Source of the DNA: a virus
Virus record (IMG/VR): IMGVR_UViG_3300025671_000101
Coordinates: 1 to 48,928 of that record
DNA: 48,928 bases
Direction: 5' to 3' (one strand)
Shown here: positions 6,627-32,746 of the stretch, piece by piece
How the letters are laid out: each line of letters begins with the position of its first letter
Numbering within the stretch: the stretch's first letter is position 1
The notes under the pieces: generated by a model
The model's input: only the letters and a program-made list of their open reading frames with translations
Told to the model about the DNA's origin: nothing
The model's database searches: none
Made by a program: the position numbers and the translations under genes

Positions 6627-8348
6627 GTGGCCCCACGCAAACGTGTCCTAGTCCCCCCGAACCCAGAAGACTTAGGCAAGGTCGGAAGACCTAAGAAAAG
6701 ACCCGGTGAATCCAAAACCACTTACAACATAAGTGACCGGGAACGTGCGCGACGTTCCGTACAAATGAAGTTGCGGAATGCAAAGAAGCAACAACAGCGG
6801 GAAGAAACCCGTGTTGCTCGCAAGCGCAAGAAGGTCAAAGACCTAACGGCTGCTGCCAAAAATATCGAAAACGCCGTGAACGGCAACAAGACCCGTGTTA
6901 TAGACGCGGCTGATTTAGACATACTACCAAAAGCCGTAACGGACTTAATTGATGACACCCCTGTTATTTTCAAACCCAATGAAGGACCTCAAGAGGACTT
7001 TCTTTCGGCTTCCGAACAAGATGTACTCTATGGGGGAGCCGCTGGTGGCGGCAAGTCGTTTGCTCTACTTGCTGACCCCCTACGCTATTGCCATAATCCC
7101 AATCATCGTGGGCTACTTCTAAGACGTACCCTCGACGAACTAACCGAACTCATCGACAAATCGAAGCAACTATACCCCAAGGCTTTTCCCGGAGCAGTGT
7201 TCCGCGAGTCAAAGTCGACGTGGGTGTTCCCGTCTGGTGCAACCATGTGGTTCACGTATCTCGACAGGGACAAGGATGTTACCCGTTTCCAAGGACAGGC
7301 GTTCAACTGGATTGGTATCGACGAAATAACCCAATACCCAACAAGCTACGTCTGGGATTACTTGCGTTCTCGTCTTCGCTCCACAGACCCTGAATTACAA
7401 AGTAGCCTAACCATGCGCTGCACAGCTAACCCCGGTGGTGTTGGCGGCTGGTGGGTTAAGAAAATGTACATTGATGCCCACGAACCCAACAAGGCGTTCG
7501 GGGCCAAGGACCTAGAGACGGGCCGTACTTTCGTGTGGCCTGAAAACCACCCAAAAGCGGGTCAGCCTCTGTTCTACCGCAAGTTTATTCCAGCACGGCT
7601 GACTGATAACCCCTTCCTGATGGCAGATGGTCAATACGAGGCCATGCTTCGGTCACTCCCAGAAGTCGAGCGTAGACGGCTTCTCGAAGGGGATTGGGAT
7701 GTTGCGGAGGGAGCCGCCTTCCCCGAATTTTCAAGGACACGACATGTGGTCGAACATTTTGACCTTCCCACGAACTGGCCCCGCATACGAGCCGCCGACT
7801 ACGGCTACTCGTCGCCGTCGTGTGTTCTGTGGGGTGCTATTGACTGGGATAACAATATTTGGGTTTATCGCGAATTATACGTAAAACACTTGACAGCAGA
7901 ACAATTAGCTGATAAAATATTAGAATGTGAAGAGTTAGACCCTACACCACACTATACGGTCCTAGACTCTTCCTGTTGGAACAAAACCGGATTCGGCCCA
8001 TCAATCGCAGAAACTATGATGAGGGCCGGGGTTAGGTGGACTCCCTCAGACCGCAACCGTCTTCAAGGAAAAATGGAACTACACAGGCGGCTTGCTGACG
8101 ACCCTTACTCCAACGAACCCCGTATGCGGATTTTTTCCAGTTGTAAGCATGTCATTGCACAGCTATCAGGCATTCCACTCTCCAAAACTAACAGCGAAGA
8201 TGTAGACACGCGAGCAGAGGACCATGCCTACGATGCGTTGCGATATATGGTTATGACGCGAACATCTGGTTATCAATCTATACATAAAACGCTTCAGGGG
8301 ATAAAGGACCAGACCTTTAAGCCCTATGATGCTACCTTTGGATATTAA
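6627..8348 (+). CDS. terL: Terminase large subunit (ATPase and nuclease)
   Basis: 573 aa, starting with GTG. Walker A is GGAAGGGKS (residues 136-144), and Walker B with the catalytic Glu is IGIDE (229-233). The C-terminal nuclease has the expected acidic residues in RAADYG (Asp 391), VLDSS (Asp 447) and the late RAEDHAYDALRY block (532-536). It cuts concatemeric DNA and pumps it into the prohead through the portal. The first 100 residues are basic and unusually long, perhaps a site for small-terminase or DNA contact. Confidence 0.95.
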   Translation: MAPRKRVLVPPNPEDLGKVGRPKKRPGESKTTYNISDRERARRSVQMKLRNAKKQQQREETRVARKRKKVKDLTAAAKNIENAVNGNKTRVIDAADLDILPKAVTDLIDDTPVIFKPNEGPQEDFLSASEQDVLYGGAAGGGKSFALLADPLRYCHNPNHRGLLLRRTLDELTELIDKSKQLYPKAFPGAVFRESKSTWVFPSGATMWFTYLDRDKDVTRFQGQAFNWIGIDEITQYPTSYVWDYLRSRLRSTDPELQSSLTMRCTANPGGVGGWWVKKMYIDAHEPNKAFGAKDLETGRTFVWPENHPKAGQPLFYRKFIPARLTDNPFLMADGQYEAMLRSLPEVERRRLLEGDWDVAEGAAFPEFSRTRHVVEHFDLPTNWPRIRAADYGYSSPSCVLWGAIDWDNNIWVYRELYVKHLTAEQLADKILECEELDPTPHYTVLDSSCWNKTGFGPSIAETMMRAGVRWTPSDRNRLQGKMELHRRLADDPYSNEPRMRIFSSCKHVIAQLSGIPLSKTNSEDVDTRAEDHAYDALRYMVMTRTSGYQSIHKTLQGIKDQTFKPYDATFGY

Positions 8349-8351
8349 CCT

Positions 8352-10724
8352 ATGGCAAACGACGATATAAAGTTTGTAAAAGAAAATAGTCTTGCTAGTA
8401 AGCCCATAACAGAAGCCGACTTAGATAAACCTTTTATTGTTATTGGGTTTATGAAAAATGAAAAAGGGTCTGGTGGCAAGCAAACAAAGGGTAATATTCA
8501 AGAAATAAGAAAGCGTGGCGATGTCTATGATATTTATCAAGGCGATGAGTTAAGACCTTCTAGTAGAGGCGTTTCGAAAGAAGAAATCTTACGGCTATAT
8601 AGCCAAGAAGCTACAGCAGGCTATATGTATAAAGCTACATCTAAGCAAGACCCAAAACTTGCTAAGTGGATTAATGTAGACGACGAAGACATTTATATTA
8701 ATCGTCTAACAGATGAAGACCCTCTTAGTCCTCTTAAATTTAAAGGCGAATCAAAGAAACCCGTGGCAGACATAGATTACAAAGCTAAAATAAAAGACGG
8801 CAGCATCACAGTTCGTGAAGCCTTTGAAGCCGTTCTATCTAAAAATTTAAGCAAAAGCAAAAAAGACACTATAGGTCCCTTATTTAAAGCTTTGCCTGAT
8901 GAGGGCGTAGATTTAGATGCACCTTATTTTGAAGTATATAATACAAGAAAATTTGCAGAAGCAATGGACTACACTACAAATACTAGCGGTGTCCACAGGT
9001 ACAAAGAGTTTGGTTCTTTTGAAACCGAACTAGACGGTTTAATAGGGGATACAAGACGATACAAACGTCTTAGTGATTCCAATAAAGCAAAAGGAATAGC
9101 TTCTACAGAATTTAGCCTTACAGGTACACAACTTCGTAATGCAGACCCTATGAGAGCAACTGTTCCTAGCGAAGCTCTAGATAAAATTTACAACGACGCT
9201 CTATTTCCTGTCGGTTCATCTGAAGTAGATACCAAGCGCGGATTAGATAGACCTACTATTATTGACCCAGAAGCTCGTGATTATTTACTATATGAAAAGT
9301 ATACAGGCCAACGCGCACAAAGCAACATTGGTGCTGACGGTTTAAAAATCTCAGATTTTAACTTTTTTACAGATGAGAATAATAATACTGTAGTAGAAGT
9401 AGCTTCTAAAAAAGTAGGCAATAAAACTCGGCCTGAAGTAACCTATACTGGAGAGTTTGCAGAGTTTTTAAGAAATAAAGTGGAACGTGCAAAAGAAAGC
9501 CTGCCTCCCGATGCTGACCTTTCAAAAGTAAATCTTTTTCAAACTACTCCTGCAGCAGTCACTAAACTATGGGACTCCGCAATTCGTCCAGCTTTAGAAA
9601 AAGATTGGAAAAATGCACTTCCTGCTAAAAAAGGTGGTTCCCATTCTACTGTTAGAAAAATACTTGCACGACAGCTAGTCGCAGAGTTTAAATTTCCTCG
9701 TGATGCTGTAAAAGCGTGGATGGGACATGCGGGAGCAGGGGTAGATGCAGCAGGAGATATACTAGACGATAACTATATAGGAACAGTTCCTGACGAACGT
9801 ATCGGCGGTATGACAAACGCACTTGTTCAAACCGATGCGTTTAACACTAAAGCAAATAACGTTAACACTATGTTTGTTAATCGAGGTGCGGGATACTCCC
9901 AAGAGGTTCTTTTTGAAACCCCTACTAAAAAACCTATGGGAAATAATCCAGACATAAATTTTGCAGGGTTCAAGGGTTTAGGACGAGACCCTACGCTCGG
10001 AGAATTAGAAGAAATATCTGCTTTGGCTTCTTCCCGTGCTGTCGAAACAGAGATTCTTACGGAAGGCCGTAGACAATATTTGAGTAAACTTCAAAGCGAA
10101 CGCCGCACCGCTACACCTAAACCAATGATTCCTGAACCGTTCGAGCCGGGAGAAGCAGTCTCATCATCCCTACAAAATGCCCTTCAAGATAATGGATTCA
10201 CTGTAGATGACTTGGATGGTATCTATGATAGTTTGGTTAAAAGAGCAGAGCCTGTTGTTAAGGCTGTCGGAACGGCTATAGAAACAGTTGAAAAGATTCC
10301 GGGTGCTAAGAAAGCACTTGTTGCAGCTACAGTTGCTTCTGGATATCAAGCCGGTAAAGCCAAAGCAGAGGAACTGGGTCTTCCATCGGTCGCACAAGAA
10401 GCTGCGGGTGTGGTCAGCGGAGCAAGTGAGCTAACCCCGTTTGCTCTTAGTGACATAGCAGACACCTTTAGTGGTTTTGGTGTAGCAGCTACAGAAGAAC
10501 AAAAGCGAATTGACGAACTACGCCGTCGTGGACAAACTTACGCTGCAAATAGAGTTGCTATAGAAGACGCAGGTATGGATACGGAGCCAGATACGCGGCT
10601 TCCTGCAACCCGTCGTCAGCAACAAGCTGATAGAATTGCTCGTGAAGATACGGGATTTATCCCAGAACCGGACAGGGTTCCTGAAGCCGCCCCTGTTGAA
10701 GAACAAGGCTTTTTATCTAGATAA
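8352..10724 (+). CDS. Large protein with an internal tyrosine-recombinase (integrase-like) domain
   Basis: 790 aa. Residues about 146-270 resemble an integrase core-binding domain (SITVREAFEAVL, then KSKKDTIGPLFKAL). Residues about 300-480 resemble the catalytic domain: TGQR (Arg 321, box I), a Lys-rich hairpin (Lys 353/354/358), HSTVR (His 431, Arg 435), MGH (His 459) and a late Tyr (DDNY, Tyr 475). The His is one position off the usual HxxR spacing and Tyr lies further from GH than usual, so activity is uncertain. A 315-aa tail follows, ending EEQGFLSR. The gene sits between terminase and portal and is A/T-richer than its neighbours, which suggests a separate origin. It could be an integrase, a dimer resolvase or a domesticated virion protein. 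Confidence 0.6.
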   Translation: MANDDIKFVKENSLASKPITEADLDKPFIVIGFMKNEKGSGGKQTKGNIQEIRKRGDVYDIYQGDELRPSSRGVSKEEILRLYSQEATAGYMYKATSKQDPKLAKWINVDDEDIYINRLTDEDPLSPLKFKGESKKPVADIDYKAKIKDGSITVREAFEAVLSKNLSKSKKDTIGPLFKALPDEGVDLDAPYFEVYNTRKFAEAMDYTTNTSGVHRYKEFGSFETELDGLIGDTRRYKRLSDSNKAKGIASTEFSLTGTQLRNADPMRATVPSEALDKIYNDALFPVGSSEVDTKRGLDRPTIIDPEARDYLLYEKYTGQRAQSNIGADGLKISDFNFFTDENNNTVVEVASKKVGNKTRPEVTYTGEFAEFLRNKVERAKESLPPDADLSKVNLFQTTPAAVTKLWDSAIRPALEKDWKNALPAKKGGSHSTVRKILARQLVAEFKFPRDAVKAWMGHAGAGVDAAGDILDDNYIGTVPDERIGGMTNALVQTDAFNTKANNVNTMFVNRGAGYSQEVLFETPTKKPMGNNPDINFAGFKGLGRDPTLGELEEISALASSRAVETEILTEGRRQYLSKLQSERRTATPKPMIPEPFEPGEAVSSSLQNALQDNGFTVDDLDGIYDSLVKRAEPVVKAVGTAIETVEKIPGAKKALVAATVASGYQAGKAKAEELGLPSVAQEAAGVVSGASELTPFALSDIADTFSGFGVAATEEQKRIDELRRRGQTYAANRVAIEDAGMDTEPDTRLPATRRQQQADRIAREDTGFIPEPDRVPEAAPVEEQGFLSR

Positions 10725-10734
10725 GGAGAGTACC

Positions 10735-10941
10735 ATGGATAAGATGGGTGCCGCTTACATTATGAACTCCGACAAAACATCTGTTGATGACCAAGGTGGT
10801 GCAGCCAAGCTGTATCGTGAGGGTCTTGAGTTCAACACAATGGCAAAGCAAGGCGTTCTTACTGAGGACATGCCAAAGAAGATGACTAAAACGGCAGTGG
10901 ACCCCTCAGTTATGAAAATGGCTGAAGAACGCGACTACTAA
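10735..10941 (+). CDS. Hypothetical protein before the portal (68 aa)
   Basis: Start at 10735 with AAGGAGAG five bases upstream, a strong ribosome-binding site. The small charged protein ends six bases before the portal gene. I do not recognise it; its position suggests a head-assembly role. Confidence 0.65.
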   Translation: MDKMGAAYIMNSDKTSVDDQGGAAKLYREGLEFNTMAKQGVLTEDMPKKMTKTAVDPSVMKMAEERDY

Positions 10942-10947
10942 AATCAG

Positions 10948-13074
10948 ATGTCAGAAGATAACTTTCTCCAACCAGCCGACGACACTACTATTTCGGTTCA
11001 CGCCCCAGAAGAGCAAATGCCGGGGCTGGCTGCGTATGTAAAGTCACGGTTCGAAGATGCTGAGAACGGGCGATACGCCCACGAACAGCGTTGGCTTCAA
11101 GCCTACAAGAACTTCAGGGGTATCTACGATTCAACGACCCAATACCGTGATTCAGAACGGTCGAAGGTCTTTGTTCGTATTACCAAGACAAAGGTTCTTG
11201 CAGCGTTTGGTCAAATCATCGACATCCTGTTCGCAAACAAGAAGTTTCCCCTTGTTGTGGAAGCCACTCCCGTACCAGAAGGTATCGCGGAGTTTGCTCA
11301 CATGGAAACCCCCTTGGACCAGATGCAATCCCAAGACCCTTATGGGTTTCCGGGAGATGGTCGCGAACTGGCTCCGGGTGCATTGCAAGCAAAACCGGGT
11401 GGCGACTTTCTAGGTGGCCTTCAAAGAAAATACGAAGGTATTCCCTTGGCAGAGGGTCCGGCACGGATGGGCGAACCCCAGATTAGCCCCGCCCAAGAAG
11501 CAGCCCTTCGGATGGAAAAAGTTATTCACGACCAGTTAACCGACACGAACGCAGTCAACGTTATGCGTAACGCTGTGTTTGAATCAGCCCTTTTGGGTAC
11601 GGGTATCGTAAAAGGTCCCTTTAATTTCTATAAGCGTGTTCACAAATGGGAACGCGACGAAAACGGCGAACGCTTTTACAACCCAGAAGAAAAGACCGTT
11701 CCACGGATTGAAATGGTATCTGTGTGGGATTTCCACCCTGACCCATCTGCTACTAGCATCGAAGACTGTGAATATGTTATTCAACGTCACCGCATGAACC
11801 GCCAACAGCTTCGTGCGCTCATAAAGCGTCCTCATTTTATTTCAGAGGCTGTTGAAGAGTGTCTTGCCAAAGGTCCTAATTACGAGGACAAGTATTACGA
11901 AGACACTATTCGCGAAGACGAAACCGAACCCTATTATCAGGGTAACCGTTACGAGGTTCTAGAGTACTGGGGTGTCTTGGATTCCAAGATGGCCCACGAA
12001 GCAGGTCTTCCTGAAGCTGACGAGATGTCAGAGTTCGACGAACTGCAAGTTAATGTCTGGGTTTGTGGCAACATGGTTATCCGCTGTGTCTTGAACCCGT
12101 TCACACCAGCCCGCATTCCATTCCAAGTGTTCCCTTACGAAGTCAACCCATACCAGCTTTGGGGTGTTGGCGTAGCAGAGAACATGGAAGATGCTCAGAA
12201 GTTGATGAACGGACATGTTCGCATGGCTATCGACAACTTGGCTCTTGCTGGCAACCTTGTGTTTGACGTGGATGAAGCCAGCTTGGTTCCGGGTCAAAAC
12301 ATGGATATTTTCCCCGGCAAAATCTTCCGTCGCCAATCTGGTGTTACCGGAACAGCCATTAACGGCTTGAAGTTTCCGAACACGGCGGGGGAAAACCTGC
12401 AGATGTACCAGATTAGCCGTCAGCTTGCTGATGAAGAGACGGGTATCCCATCAATTATGCACGGTCAAACAGGTGTATCTGGAACTGGACGAACCGCTGC
12501 TGGTCTCTCTATGTTGATGGGTTCTGCCGGTCTATCAATGAAGACGGTAATCAAAAACATCGATGACATGCTCTTGAAGCCCTTGGGCGAAGCCTACTTC
12601 CAATGGAACATGCAGTTCAATAAAGATGCCGAAGATATCCAAGGTGACCTAGAAATCAAGCCTCGCGGTGTTGCAGCCGTGATGCAAAAAGAGGTTCGCA
12701 CACAACGCCTGACTTCCCTGTTGCAAACCGTTGCGAACCCGATGCTGGCACCGTTCATCAAGATACCTAACTTGATGCGGGAACTAGCTATCTCCCAAGA
12801 TATCGACCCAGACAGCCTAGTCAACGATGCCAACCAAGCACAACTCTACGCACAGATGTTAAAAGGAATGATGGCAAATGTACAGCAAGGAACAGGCGAA
12901 GCTGGTGGGGCCGCTGCTGGCCCAGCCGCAGATATGGCAGGGGCTGGAGGCGTATCTCCAAGTCCTGAAGGAACAGACTTACAGGGGTCTGGTAACGGCA
13001 CAATCGGAGTCGGAACTGCGCCAACTGCAGGGGAAAGCGGCTTTACTGGAAACCCTCCTTCAATTGAAGGTTAA
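10948..13074 (+). CDS. Portal (head-tail connector) protein
   Basis: 708 aa, in the size range of podovirus portals. Recognisable features are an early helical block with several Trp (YAHEQRWLQAYKNFRG), a central WDFHPDP segment and the late DEETGIPSIMHGQTG / GRTAAGLSMLMG region followed by long helices, as in portals of marine podoviruses. It forms the dodecameric ring at the DNA entry vertex and binds terminase. The last 65 residues are Gly/Ala-rich and low in complexity. This tail is encoded over another gene in a different frame (12878-13102) and is probably shaped by that overlap. Confidence 0.9.
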   Translation: MSEDNFLQPADDTTISVHAPEEQMPGLAAYVKSRFEDAENGRYAHEQRWLQAYKNFRGIYDSTTQYRDSERSKVFVRITKTKVLAAFGQIIDILFANKKFPLVVEATPVPEGIAEFAHMETPLDQMQSQDPYGFPGDGRELAPGALQAKPGGDFLGGLQRKYEGIPLAEGPARMGEPQISPAQEAALRMEKVIHDQLTDTNAVNVMRNAVFESALLGTGIVKGPFNFYKRVHKWERDENGERFYNPEEKTVPRIEMVSVWDFHPDPSATSIEDCEYVIQRHRMNRQQLRALIKRPHFISEAVEECLAKGPNYEDKYYEDTIREDETEPYYQGNRYEVLEYWGVLDSKMAHEAGLPEADEMSEFDELQVNVWVCGNMVIRCVLNPFTPARIPFQVFPYEVNPYQLWGVGVAENMEDAQKLMNGHVRMAIDNLALAGNLVFDVDEASLVPGQNMDIFPGKIFRRQSGVTGTAINGLKFPNTAGENLQMYQISRQLADEETGIPSIMHGQTGVSGTGRTAAGLSMLMGSAGLSMKTVIKNIDDMLLKPLGEAYFQWNMQFNKDAEDIQGDLEIKPRGVAAVMQKEVRTQRLTSLLQTVANPMLAPFIKIPNLMRELAISQDIDPDSLVNDANQAQLYAQMLKGMMANVQQGTGEAGGAAAGPAADMAGAGGVSPSPEGTDLQGSGNGTIGVGTAPTAGESGFTGNPPSIEG

Positions 13075-13102
13075 CCACGAGGCAATTGTAAAAAATGGCT
13101 AG
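12878..13102 (+). CDS. Helical protein overprinted on the portal tail (74 aa)
   Basis: Lies out of frame within the last 197 bases of the portal gene and overlaps the next gene by 8 bases. The translation looks like a true protein: an amphipathic, Leu/Gln/Glu-rich helical peptide with a LVTAQSESELRQLQGKAALLETLL core. I recognise this pattern from small genes after the portal in marine podoviruses. AAGGA lies about 11 bases before the ATG. Function unknown; position suggests head completion or a portal partner. Confidence 0.75.
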   Translation: MYSKEQAKLVGPLLAQPQIWQGLEAYLQVLKEQTYRGLVTAQSESELRQLQGKAALLETLLQLKVNHEAIVKNG

Positions 13103-14894
13103 ATACGACCCAGAACTTCTCACTAAAGAGCAGTACTTAACATCTAATGTTCAATACGGACGGCAAGCATATGGTTTGTATCCTGAGTTTGGTGGCTGGG
13201 AAGAAACTACAGGTATTGATGTAGAGGTTGCGGGAGAAGCCCCCGACGGGCGGGAAGACGGCGGGCCTAATGTTCTTGAAATGGTAGATATAACATCAGG
13301 TCAACCTGTCTATGACGTGAGTTATGGCCTTCCGTCTGGTTACAACTCAAACTATAAAACTTACGACGATTATCTATCTGCGAACAACAAAAAAGACCGT
13401 TTGAGCAGTATGTTTTCGCCTGAAGATTTTGAGTTCACTAAAGAAAAAGCTTTTGCAGGTACGGTAGGGGTTTTAGCAAAAGGCAGCCCTATGGGTCTTG
13501 TTGCGGGAGCTTTATTGGTGGGCGACACCGTGACTAATGCGTTTGGCAACGAAAGTTGGCGACCATCAGGACCTTTAGGTGTAGTTTCGGATATGGTACA
13601 TAGTCGTCAATATAAAGATATGGCATCTATTAAAGCAGGTATTGCCGCAGGAACAACAGGCGGGTTTGCTATGCAAGTAGGCAATGGCGGTATTACTCGC
13701 GCTCCGAATGCTCTGACTTATACCGGTAACATGATGGGGTTATCCTTTGAACAGGTTAAAGCTCGCGATGCCATTTCTAAAGGGTTCACACCAACAAGTT
13801 TTAATATGAGTAAAGAATCTGGCACAACATTTAAACAAGCCGGATGGCTTCCAATTGCCTATTCTACAAATGCGGACGGAGTAACTACAGGTGCTGCAAC
13901 AGGGTTTTACACGGAAAATGGAAACTTTGTAGACCAATATGGCAACACATCTATGATGGGAACAATGCAAGATGCACAGAACTTAGCAGATGCTTACGGC
14001 ATATCTTTGCAAGGAGCTAGAAGTGCGCTGGGTGTTGCTCGTACAGGCGGTAAAACACTATCTAAGGCTCTTCAAGATACTATGTTTGCGGAATCTGGAC
14101 AGACTGCGGCTGGTTTAGAAGGCGGCACAACCGGAGCCGGAAAAAAGGCCGAAGACTTTACAGGTTTTGCTTCTATGACTGGAAGCTATACTGGTTACAC
14201 AACTTACGATGATGACGACACCAGTACACCTGATACACCCTCTACTCCTGATACGCCATCAGAACCAAGTCGCCCATCAACCCCACCGGGAATTGGTCCC
14301 GGACCTGCTACACCTTCTGCATCAGATAATAACGACGACAAAGGCGATGGTGGCATGGGCCACGGTGGCGGCGGTTTTTCTGATAGAGGCGGATTCTCAG
14401 GGCTTGAAGGCGACGCTCGCGGCGGCCTAATTACCCACGGCAGACCACAAAACAGAAACGCCTACGCCTTTGGAACCCCGCCAGCAGGGGTACAAGCCTC
14501 ACAGAGCGGTTTTATTGACCGCCCGCCATCACAGGTCACGGAAGGCGATAAAGTCGCTGACAACCGCCCTGACAGCGTTCCAGAGGGTACCTATATTATA
14601 AATGCTGCTGCCGTCGAGTTCGCGGGAGAGCAGGATATCCGTAAAATGATTATGGATGCCCAGAAGGAAGCGATTCGCCGTGGTCTGTCTACAGACGACT
14701 TTGAGCGGCATTCAAACCTTATAGATATTGCGGTGTCGAGTGGTGAAGTTAAGATTGCACCGCACCTAGTAGATATTATTGGCGAAGACCGCCTAGAAAA
14801 GATTAATAAACGAGGCATTCGGAAAACCGAACAGCGCATTGCACAAAATGGACAACGACCCGTCCAAGCAGCGCGAGGCGGTTTCCTAGCCTAA
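13095..14894 (+). CDS. Virion-associated protein with a C-terminal 'EGTYIINA' domain (599 aa)
   Basis: The N-terminal 380 residues are rich in Gly, Thr and Ala. Residues about 375-440 are a low-complexity Asp/Thr/Pro/Gly linker. The last 130 residues form a domain (VPEGTYIINAAAVEFAG ... VDIIGEDRLEKINKRG) that I know from structural proteins of marine phages. It ends in ARGGFLA, similar to the GFLS tails of two other proteins here. It lies between portal and scaffold and is probably a virion component, exact role unknown. Confidence 0.6.
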   Translation: MARYDPELLTKEQYLTSNVQYGRQAYGLYPEFGGWEETTGIDVEVAGEAPDGREDGGPNVLEMVDITSGQPVYDVSYGLPSGYNSNYKTYDDYLSANNKKDRLSSMFSPEDFEFTKEKAFAGTVGVLAKGSPMGLVAGALLVGDTVTNAFGNESWRPSGPLGVVSDMVHSRQYKDMASIKAGIAAGTTGGFAMQVGNGGITRAPNALTYTGNMMGLSFEQVKARDAISKGFTPTSFNMSKESGTTFKQAGWLPIAYSTNADGVTTGAATGFYTENGNFVDQYGNTSMMGTMQDAQNLADAYGISLQGARSALGVARTGGKTLSKALQDTMFAESGQTAAGLEGGTTGAGKKAEDFTGFASMTGSYTGYTTYDDDDTSTPDTPSTPDTPSEPSRPSTPPGIGPGPATPSASDNNDDKGDGGMGHGGGGFSDRGGFSGLEGDARGGLITHGRPQNRNAYAFGTPPAGVQASQSGFIDRPPSQVTEGDKVADNRPDSVPEGTYIINAAAVEFAGEQDIRKMIMDAQKEAIRRGLSTDDFERHSNLIDIAVSSGEVKIAPHLVDIIGEDRLEKINKRGIRKTEQRIAQNGQRPVQAARGGFLA

Positions 14895-31694: not shown

Positions 31695-32213
31695 ATGGAT
31701 TTTTTTAATAGTGTTGCAAATTTTTTTGGAAGTATTGAAACCGGAATTGGAAACGTTGCAAACTGGTTGTTCGGAACTGATGAAGGGATGGGGGAAGACT
31801 ACGGAACCTCCGGTGTTATTAGCGATATATTTGGATATGGCGACAGCTTTTTGAGTTCTAGTTCTCCGGCTGGCAAGTTAGCGGCAAGCTACCTCACAGG
31901 CATCGAAGAAAAAGAGAAAAGAAAACCTCAAGACTTTCTTATTAAAATAGGAGAGGGTCCGGGTGCCACTACAGCAGCACGGACTGCTGCACCTCGTTTT
32001 GTAGGAGAGAACAACCAAGCCTTTCGTAACGCCGTGAACCGTCTTGCAAGCCGCACAAACTTAAATCCGCAAACTGCCGACATTGCGCGAACCTACTTAA
32101 CCGTGCAGCAAGGCAGACGTACTCTTGGAACCCCATCTCCGACTGTATCTCGTGTAGCAGCAGCCCCCGCTGCCTCAGTTCGAACAGAATCTAAAGAAGT
32201 GGATATAGCATAA
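31695..32213 (+). CDS. Hypothetical virion protein (172 aa)
   Basis: The N-terminal 35 residues are aromatic and amphipathic (FFNSVANFFGSIETGIGNVANWLFG), possibly membrane-interacting; the remainder is Ala/Arg/Thr-rich. AGAGG lies about 10 bases before the ATG. It is in the ejection-protein operon. A small ejected protein that contacts the inner membrane is plausible but unproven. Confidence 0.55.
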   Translation: MDFFNSVANFFGSIETGIGNVANWLFGTDEGMGEDYGTSGVISDIFGYGDSFLSSSSPAGKLAASYLTGIEEKEKRKPQDFLIKIGEGPGATTAARTAAPRFVGENNQAFRNAVNRLASRTNLNPQTADIARTYLTVQQGRRTLGTPSPTVSRVAAAPAASVRTESKEVDIA

Positions 32214-32746
32214 TGTCATCTGTTAGCCCAAGATATGGGGACATGTTCGCGGCTGCCCCGCCCGGACATTCTTTAACGTCAGATAATACCCAATGGCCTT
32301 GGGGTCAACCACCTAAGTTTGCAGACCCTAATGAAGCCTTAGATGATATGATAAAGCGTCTAGATGACGAGCGCAAACAACAAGAACTGTTTAAACTTCT
32401 ATTAGTGGGTGTATCTATTGAAGTTATTGTAGAAGGGCTTGTGTTTCGTTCATTTAGAGACGGAATATTTAGCCCAGATGTAGGAATGCTTATAAAAGCA
32501 CCTCTTGGGCTATATATTGCAGACCTAGCTGAAGAAAATAGCATACCATACCGGCTGTTCGAAAATGACAATGCCGGTCGTGAAAATGAAATTGATGACC
32601 AGACATTCTTGCGTATGCTTTACGAAAACAATCCTAGAATGTTCGAGGCGATGCAAGAAACAATCAATGCAGCTATTCGTGCAGGTCAGGAACCAGTAGA
32701 AGAGCGTGGTTTTTTGTCTGAGCGTGAAGAGGAGCCTGAAGAATGA
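32213..32746 (+). CDS. Virion protein of the 'PPGHSLT' type (177 aa)
   Basis: Starts within the upstream stop codon (TAATG). The N-terminal PPGHSLTSDNTQWPWGQPPK and FADPNEALDDM blocks, a hydrophobic middle (VGVSIEVIVEGL) and the segment FSPDVGMLIKAPLGLYIADLA match structural proteins known to me from T4-like and pelagic phages. It ends with EERGFLSE plus an acidic tail. Probably virion-associated; exact place unknown. Confidence 0.65.
   Translation: MSSVSPRYGDMFAAAPPGHSLTSDNTQWPWGQPPKFADPNEALDDMIKRLDDERKQQELFKLLLVGVSIEVIVEGLVFRSFRDGIFSPDVGMLIKAPLGLYIADLAEENSIPYRLFENDNAGRENEIDDQTFLRMLYENNPRMFEAMQETINAAIRAGQEPVEERGFLSEREEEPEE

Follow-up and report, generated by a model that had tools for sequence, protein, structure and literature searches.

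Phage tyrosine recombinases are usually labelled integrases, and a gene with the recombinase fold that lies between the large terminase and portal genes of a phage sits in an unexpected place. The locus examined here raises the question of whether lysogeny is encoded in a form that annotation has missed, or whether the fold serves a late or virion role. An earlier note on this DNA (IMG/VR record IMGVR_UViG_3300025671_000101, 48,928 nucleotides, here called the window), made from the sequence alone, had pointed out a recombinase-like domain in a 790-aa protein and had left the choice between a packaged recombinase, a dimer resolvase and a repurposed head protein.

The open reading frame was found as described in that note, between the genes for the large terminase (terL) and the portal in the list of open reading frames (Table 1). 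It starts with ATG and comprises 790 codons, and its product is referred to as P0001 and its position as the slot. Given that the gene follows terL on the same strand with a spacing of 3 bp, it was assigned to the late operon. The small 68-aa ORF between slot gene and portal is present across the contigs of the clade. Identical copies of P0001, own flanks included, occur in two further IMG/VR records (L001 and L002), which makes an assembly artefact unlikely. The window portal is 45-53% identical to those of HMO-2011-type isolates (HTVC033P, CRP and HMO-2011 phages), the terL and coat proteins are related to their HMO-2011-type counterparts and the DNA polymerase has a weak DnaJ zinc-domain match; judged from these sequence relationships the genome, of which about 4 kb is missing from the window, is that of an HMO-2011-type marine podovirus.

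Table 1. Features of the slot gene and its surroundings (positions in the window; aa, residues of P0001).
Feature	Position	Strand	Basis
Large terminase (terL), conserved left flank of cassette	6627..8348	+	
Slot gene, 790-aa tyrosine-recombinase-domain protein (P0001)	8352..10724	+	ORF call; related slot genes at equivalent place in IMG/VR contigs
Optional N-terminal module, aa 1-138	8352..8765	+	Allele comparison
Tract replaced in sister genome (G001/L011)	8772..10634	+	Junctions 8771 and 10635
Helical core-binding-like domain, aa 143-232	8778..9047	+	AF2 (helices at residues about 143-231)
Predicted catalytic domain, Cre-like fold, aa 273-480	9168..9791	+	AF2, Foldseek, PF00589/phrog_1 matches of relatives
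Arg I, R321	9312..9314	+	Conserved 63/63
Hairpin Lys, K358 (beta2-beta3 hairpin)	9423..9425	+	Lys 59/63, Arg 3/63
S432, at HxxR His position	9645..9647	+	Non-conserved: S, Y, K, gap or other in relatives
Arg II, R435	9654..9656	+	Conserved 63/63
H459	9726..9728	+	H 32/63, R 30/63, K 1/63
Nucleophile Tyr, Y475	9774..9776	+	Conserved 63/63
C-terminal tail, aa 501-790	9852..10721	+	Low-confidence helices; moderately hydrophobic Ala/Gly/Pro-rich stretch
C-terminal GFLSR peptide	10707..10721	+	Motif count
Small conserved 68-aa ORF between slot gene and portal	10735..10941	+	Coding
Portal, conserved right flank	10948..13074	+	

Direct searches with P0001 alone gave no Pfam or PHROG family match and no useful match to a PDB sequence, and profile searches of the PDB sequences with alignments A2 and A3 gave no match either. 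Residues 137-500, modelled by AF2 with 61 sequences, reached a pLDDT of 87.9 and a pTM of 0.78, and when this model was compared with the PDB by Foldseek the top match was Cre (4crx; E 9.7e-5, probability 1.00), followed by TelA and TelK. The ten best PDB matches were all Cre or protelomerases (telomere resolvases), i.e. members of the tyrosine recombinase superfamily, and the whole-chain TM-scores to Cre of about 0.45-0.5 indicated a likeness in fold that is not close. The full-length AF2 model was of low confidence (pLDDT 60) and gave weak fold matches, the top ones again all tyrosine recombinases. The order of the elements also fits the fold, with a helical core-binding domain, a helix followed by Arg I, the Lys in a beta hairpin, a helix that begins with Arg II, and finally H459 and the Tyr helix. 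The core-binding-like domain anticipated by the earlier note could thus be recognized in the predicted helices, and the structure prediction that it had proposed returned the fold of Cre and TelA and not an unrelated one.

The comparison with the integrase family PF00589, also proposed there, was negative for P0001 itself and positive for many of its relatives: 30/61 related slot domains matched PF00589 (E<=0.01; best 3.3e-9), one relative (L037 in G003) exceeding the curated cut-off in the genome search, and 36/61 matched the PHROG integrase family phrog_1 (best 8.5e-16). Two alleles that carry the P0001-type N-terminal module in front of other central domains matched PF00589 at 4e-4 and 1.3e-4 and the PHROG integrases at 1e-8 and 1e-7. 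Profile alignment of the P0001-type with the L010-type sequences extended over the whole domain to residue 486, with the N-terminal module adding to the score. From sequence comparison and modelling together, the assignment of the P0001 domain to the tyrosine recombinase superfamily is clear.

Conservation of the catalytic residues was read from two alignments, one of 61 domains over 626 columns (A4) and a separate one of 63 sequences with a median pairwise identity of about 16%. The only invariant columns among the 626 of A4 were R321, R435 and Y475, with K358 nearly so. R321, R435, H459 and Y475 had all been placed correctly in the earlier note, and the family alignment showed the two arginines and the tyrosine to be retained throughout a very diverse family in which position 459 is H or R. 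The Lys-rich hairpin noticed there could be narrowed down, the catalytic Lys being assigned to K358. The proposed catalytic histidine H431 did not hold up, since it is conserved in only 7/63 sequences and the canonical HxxR position is taken by S432, so that P0001 lacks the HxxR His. This position is variable in the wider tyrosine recombinase superfamily, and its loss is therefore not disqualifying for membership. The Tyr is indeed more distant than usual, 16 residues separating H459 from Y475 compared with 9 in XerD-type proteins, and the length of this loop differs between alleles. The presence of Arg at position 459 in half of the family is unusual for recombinases.

The distribution of the slot gene was examined in 80 loci that a portal-anchored scan of IMG/VR yielded for the window's clade. 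Wherever terL and portal were both visible, a single ORF of about 530-850 aa lay in the interval. Similarity clustering placed 84 of the 85 distinct slot proteins in one cluster, and in the one outlier (L097) the catalytic residues are retained. Two sister clades were searched for from the HTVC033P portal and from a MAG portal; none of their 133 loci with both anchors had a large ORF in the slot, which was either empty or held small ORFs only. No comparable gene was found at the terL-portal place in cultured relatives, P0001 and the other slot alleles tested had no match in 50,697 phage records, and no relative of the alleles tested was found in the plasmids and cultured phages searched. Given its presence in all visible loci of the window's clade and in 0/133 sister loci, the slot gene appears from these sequence comparisons to be a clade-specific acquisition that is apparently fixed.

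Within this clade the gene is exchanged between genomes. The identity of the slot domains was compared with that of the adjoining portals for 1,596 pairs and the Spearman coefficient was 0.06, a decoupling of allele and backbone that could in some cases be inflated by chimeric metagenome assembly in mixed populations. Among portal pairs at least 95% identical, 85% flanked slot domains that were less than 30% identical, and at a threshold of 35% identity the domains fell into 14 allele families. The breakpoints of the swaps were located at the ATG of the gene and near its stop or within the tail. When the window was compared with G001, the flanks were 94-98% identical as far as aa 140 and again over the last ~30 aa, and the stretch that separates them showed no DNA similarity. 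The parts of the gene are also reshuffled: the N-terminal module recurs in alleles whose recombinase domains are unrelated (L010, L011, L012 and L013), many alleles lack it, their first residue corresponding to aa ~138, and the tail assorts independently of the domain (10 pairs with a common tail and different domains, 40 with a common domain and different tails). The dN/dS ratio of about 0.11 within allele families indicated purifying selection inside these families. On these sequence data, the slot alleles are old and functional, are exchanged as whole genes on a constant backbone and are far more diverse than the neighbouring genes. This suggests that the allele pool may be kept by frequency-dependent selection. 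What these comparisons add to the earlier note is mainly that the slot gene, as judged from its sequences, behaves as an exchangeable cassette and is fixed in a single clade of phages. A second variable locus lies on the other side of the portal, where the post-portal gene (13095-14894) of close relatives has either been replaced or has diverged strongly (13100-14202).

The C-terminal ends of the proteins were examined for a short motif. Of 62 complete slot proteins, 53 have the pattern [GSDN]F[LIVMTA] within 20 aa of the C-terminus, and a GF-type motif is found near the C-terminus of 49/61 portals, 3/56 terL proteins and 0/50 proteins in the scaffold position. The motif was considered as a specific virion tag and set aside as suggestive only: portals of the sister clades, whose loci have no slot gene, carry a counterpart, which makes it weak evidence for a virion location. 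Elsewhere in the window, a 177-aa protein encoded at 32213-32746, ahead of the structural module's two largest ORFs, has a GFLS motif near its C-terminus, and the product of the post-portal gene ends in GGFLA.

The earlier note had suggested that this phage may be able to integrate, and the gene could on this account be an ordinary lysogeny integrase whose place in the head operon is incidental, with its attP inside the gene, as in the SSV-type archaeal viruses, and with alleles swapped to suit different host attachment sites. The integrase fold and the catalytic residues would agree with such a role, temperate phages are well known to exchange their integrases often, and no second integrase-like gene was found in the window or in the nearly complete relatives. 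Some HMO-2011-type phages are in fact temperate and have a tyrosine integrase, CRP-3 integrating at tRNA-Met, but their integrase is located upstream of the replication module and not in the terL-portal slot (PMC9038755, PMC6918029); in the survey of the HMO-2011-type phages the subgroups without int were regarded as possibly obligately lytic (PMC9038755). A large tail and a late-operon place are likewise odd for an integrase, and no non-coding DNA adjoins the slot gene. The gap of ~230 bp before the portal was considered as attP and rejected, because the 68-aa ORF that occupies it is coding and conserved. No tRNA-derived sequence, and with it no att core of the host-tRNA type for which the earlier note had suggested a search, was found in the window, G001 or G002; the T-arm motif was seen 10 times in the window against 5.6 expected when one mismatch was allowed, with 0 exact matches. 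The candidate att core of this type in G003 also counts against an integrase, since it proved to be a complete phage tRNA. This tRNA (L301, 3585-3657) is complete but degenerate, scores 42.9 bits with Rfam, was missed by ARAGORN and sits downstream of a ribonucleotide reductase gene. No inverted repeats were detected inside the slot gene or in the intergenic regions tested, and a PHROG scan of 20 window proteins gave no repressor or excisionase. A single search of 84,980 GTDB species genomes, in which the hosts may be under-sampled, yielded no prophage of the clade and only two distant related portals, both on MAG contigs and both with a small gene in the slot. Given that no attP-like site, tRNA core, lox-like palindrome, other integrase or prophage was found, a role of the slot recombinase as integration enzyme is not supported. 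An attP of a type other than tRNA could lie inside the gene, the window is short of the whole genome by about 4 kb and the hosts are poorly sampled, and we regard the lysogeny integrase as unlikely, though as the most probable of the alternatives.

Other roles would not involve the host chromosome. Cre circularises the genome and resolves dimers for P1, and the slot enzyme might similarly use a site in the phage's own genome to circularise the injected DNA or to resolve concatemers or dimers. Cre is the best structural match, the gene adjoins the terminase and the G001 contig is terminally redundant over 742 bp. However, no lox-like repeats (12-bp arms, <=1 mismatch, 4-10-bp spacer) were found in the window, G001, G002 or G003, and a swapped enzyme would need a swapped site, yet the near flanks are constant except for the post-portal gene region. 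Such a housekeeping role also gives no reason for the extreme turnover of alleles, and the sister phages manage without the gene; we consider it improbable. The G001 repeat itself (L133 1-742 versus the last 742 bases of L135) is 98% identical and not exact, and represents either a redundant end or a strain mixture. An enzyme of low specificity that nicks and rejoins DNA in the manner of a type IB topoisomerase, and so relieves torsion during packaging or ejection, would need no cognate site, in agreement with the failure to detect one, and topoisomerase IB has an R-K-R-H/R-Y-like set without the HxxR His. The best structural matches are nevertheless recombinases and telomere resolvases and not topoisomerase IB, and neither the swapping of alleles nor the lack of the gene in sister phages would be explained, making this reading very unlikely. 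The least probable alternative in our judgement is that the protein has been repurposed for a structural or ejection role, a possibility raised in the earlier note for a head protein, and uses its recombinase fold only to bind DNA. This would account for the late-operon place, for a long tail that includes a moderately hydrophobic patch and for the resemblance of the C-terminal GF motif to that of the portal. An inert scaffold is not expected to keep its nucleophile, however, and here R, R and Y are alone in being invariant across 61 sequences of about 16% identity. With almost everything else free to vary, the retention of the two arginines and of the nucleophile makes an inert head protein unlikely.

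The most likely reading, with a probability of roughly 0.45, is that the slot protein is a tyrosine recombinase that is active, made late, possibly carried in the virion and exchangeable in its specificity. An invariant active site in an enzyme of which nearly all the rest is swapped between phages suggests an active enzyme with an ever-changing target. As predicted from the alignments and the model, P0001 and its relatives would be catalytically competent recombinases of the Cre/integrase fold, with core-binding and catalytic domains and the R-K-R-Y set, to which an optional N-terminal module and a variable tail of ~290 aa are joined. Given its place in the late head operon and its long tail, the protein is probably made together with the virion proteins and carried in or with the particle, a location that the hydrophobic stretch of the tail and the C-terminal motif would also suit. 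It may then act on DNA either during packaging or once the next cell is entered, through transient 3'-phosphotyrosyl strand cleavage and exchange, the exchangeable catalytic domain presumably setting the DNA specificity and frequency-dependent selection maintaining the many alleles. Neither the cassette nor the DNA beside it yielded a candidate for the cognate site, and the substrate would therefore most likely lie outside the packaging region, i.e. in host DNA, in a co-infecting phage or at a site too weakly symmetric to be recognised here. More speculatively, and rather doubtfully, such a virion-delivered polymorphic recombinase might be a DNA-rearranging effector directed against host or rival-phage DNA and not a lysogeny integrase. 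A widespread marine group of phages carries this recombinase-fold gene in every contig in which the slot is visible, and this is a warning that an integrase match alone is not a marker of lysogeny, just as the absence of an integrase is no proof of lytic life.

Among known systems, Cre of phage P1 is closest in architecture, with a core-binding and a catalytic domain and the R-K-R-H-Y order. P0001 is only 10-12% identical to it, lacks the HxxR His and has a longer loop before the Tyr and, unlike Cre, it has a tail, an optional N-terminal module and a place in the head operon and no detected lox-like site. The protelomerases TelA and TelK are the next-best PDB matches, whereas no palindromic telomere-like site was detected in the four genomes searched and membership of the protelomerases is not claimed. 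The integrases of CRP-1, CRP-2, CRP-3 and HMO-2011 are likewise tyrosine recombinases from related marine phages, but they differ in their position upstream of the replication module, and no attP-like site was found with the slot gene. No earlier description of a hypervariable recombinase in a terminase-portal interval was found in the literature covered, subscription journals and preprints being outside its scope. The gp44 protein of Staphylococcus phage 80alpha is reported to be an ejected protein that binds and protects the genome ends (PMC7290940), and it offers a precedent, with no claim of homology to P0001, for virion-delivered proteins acting on phage DNA. The superfamily of the slot protein is known; the system is new in its position, its tail and its allele pool.
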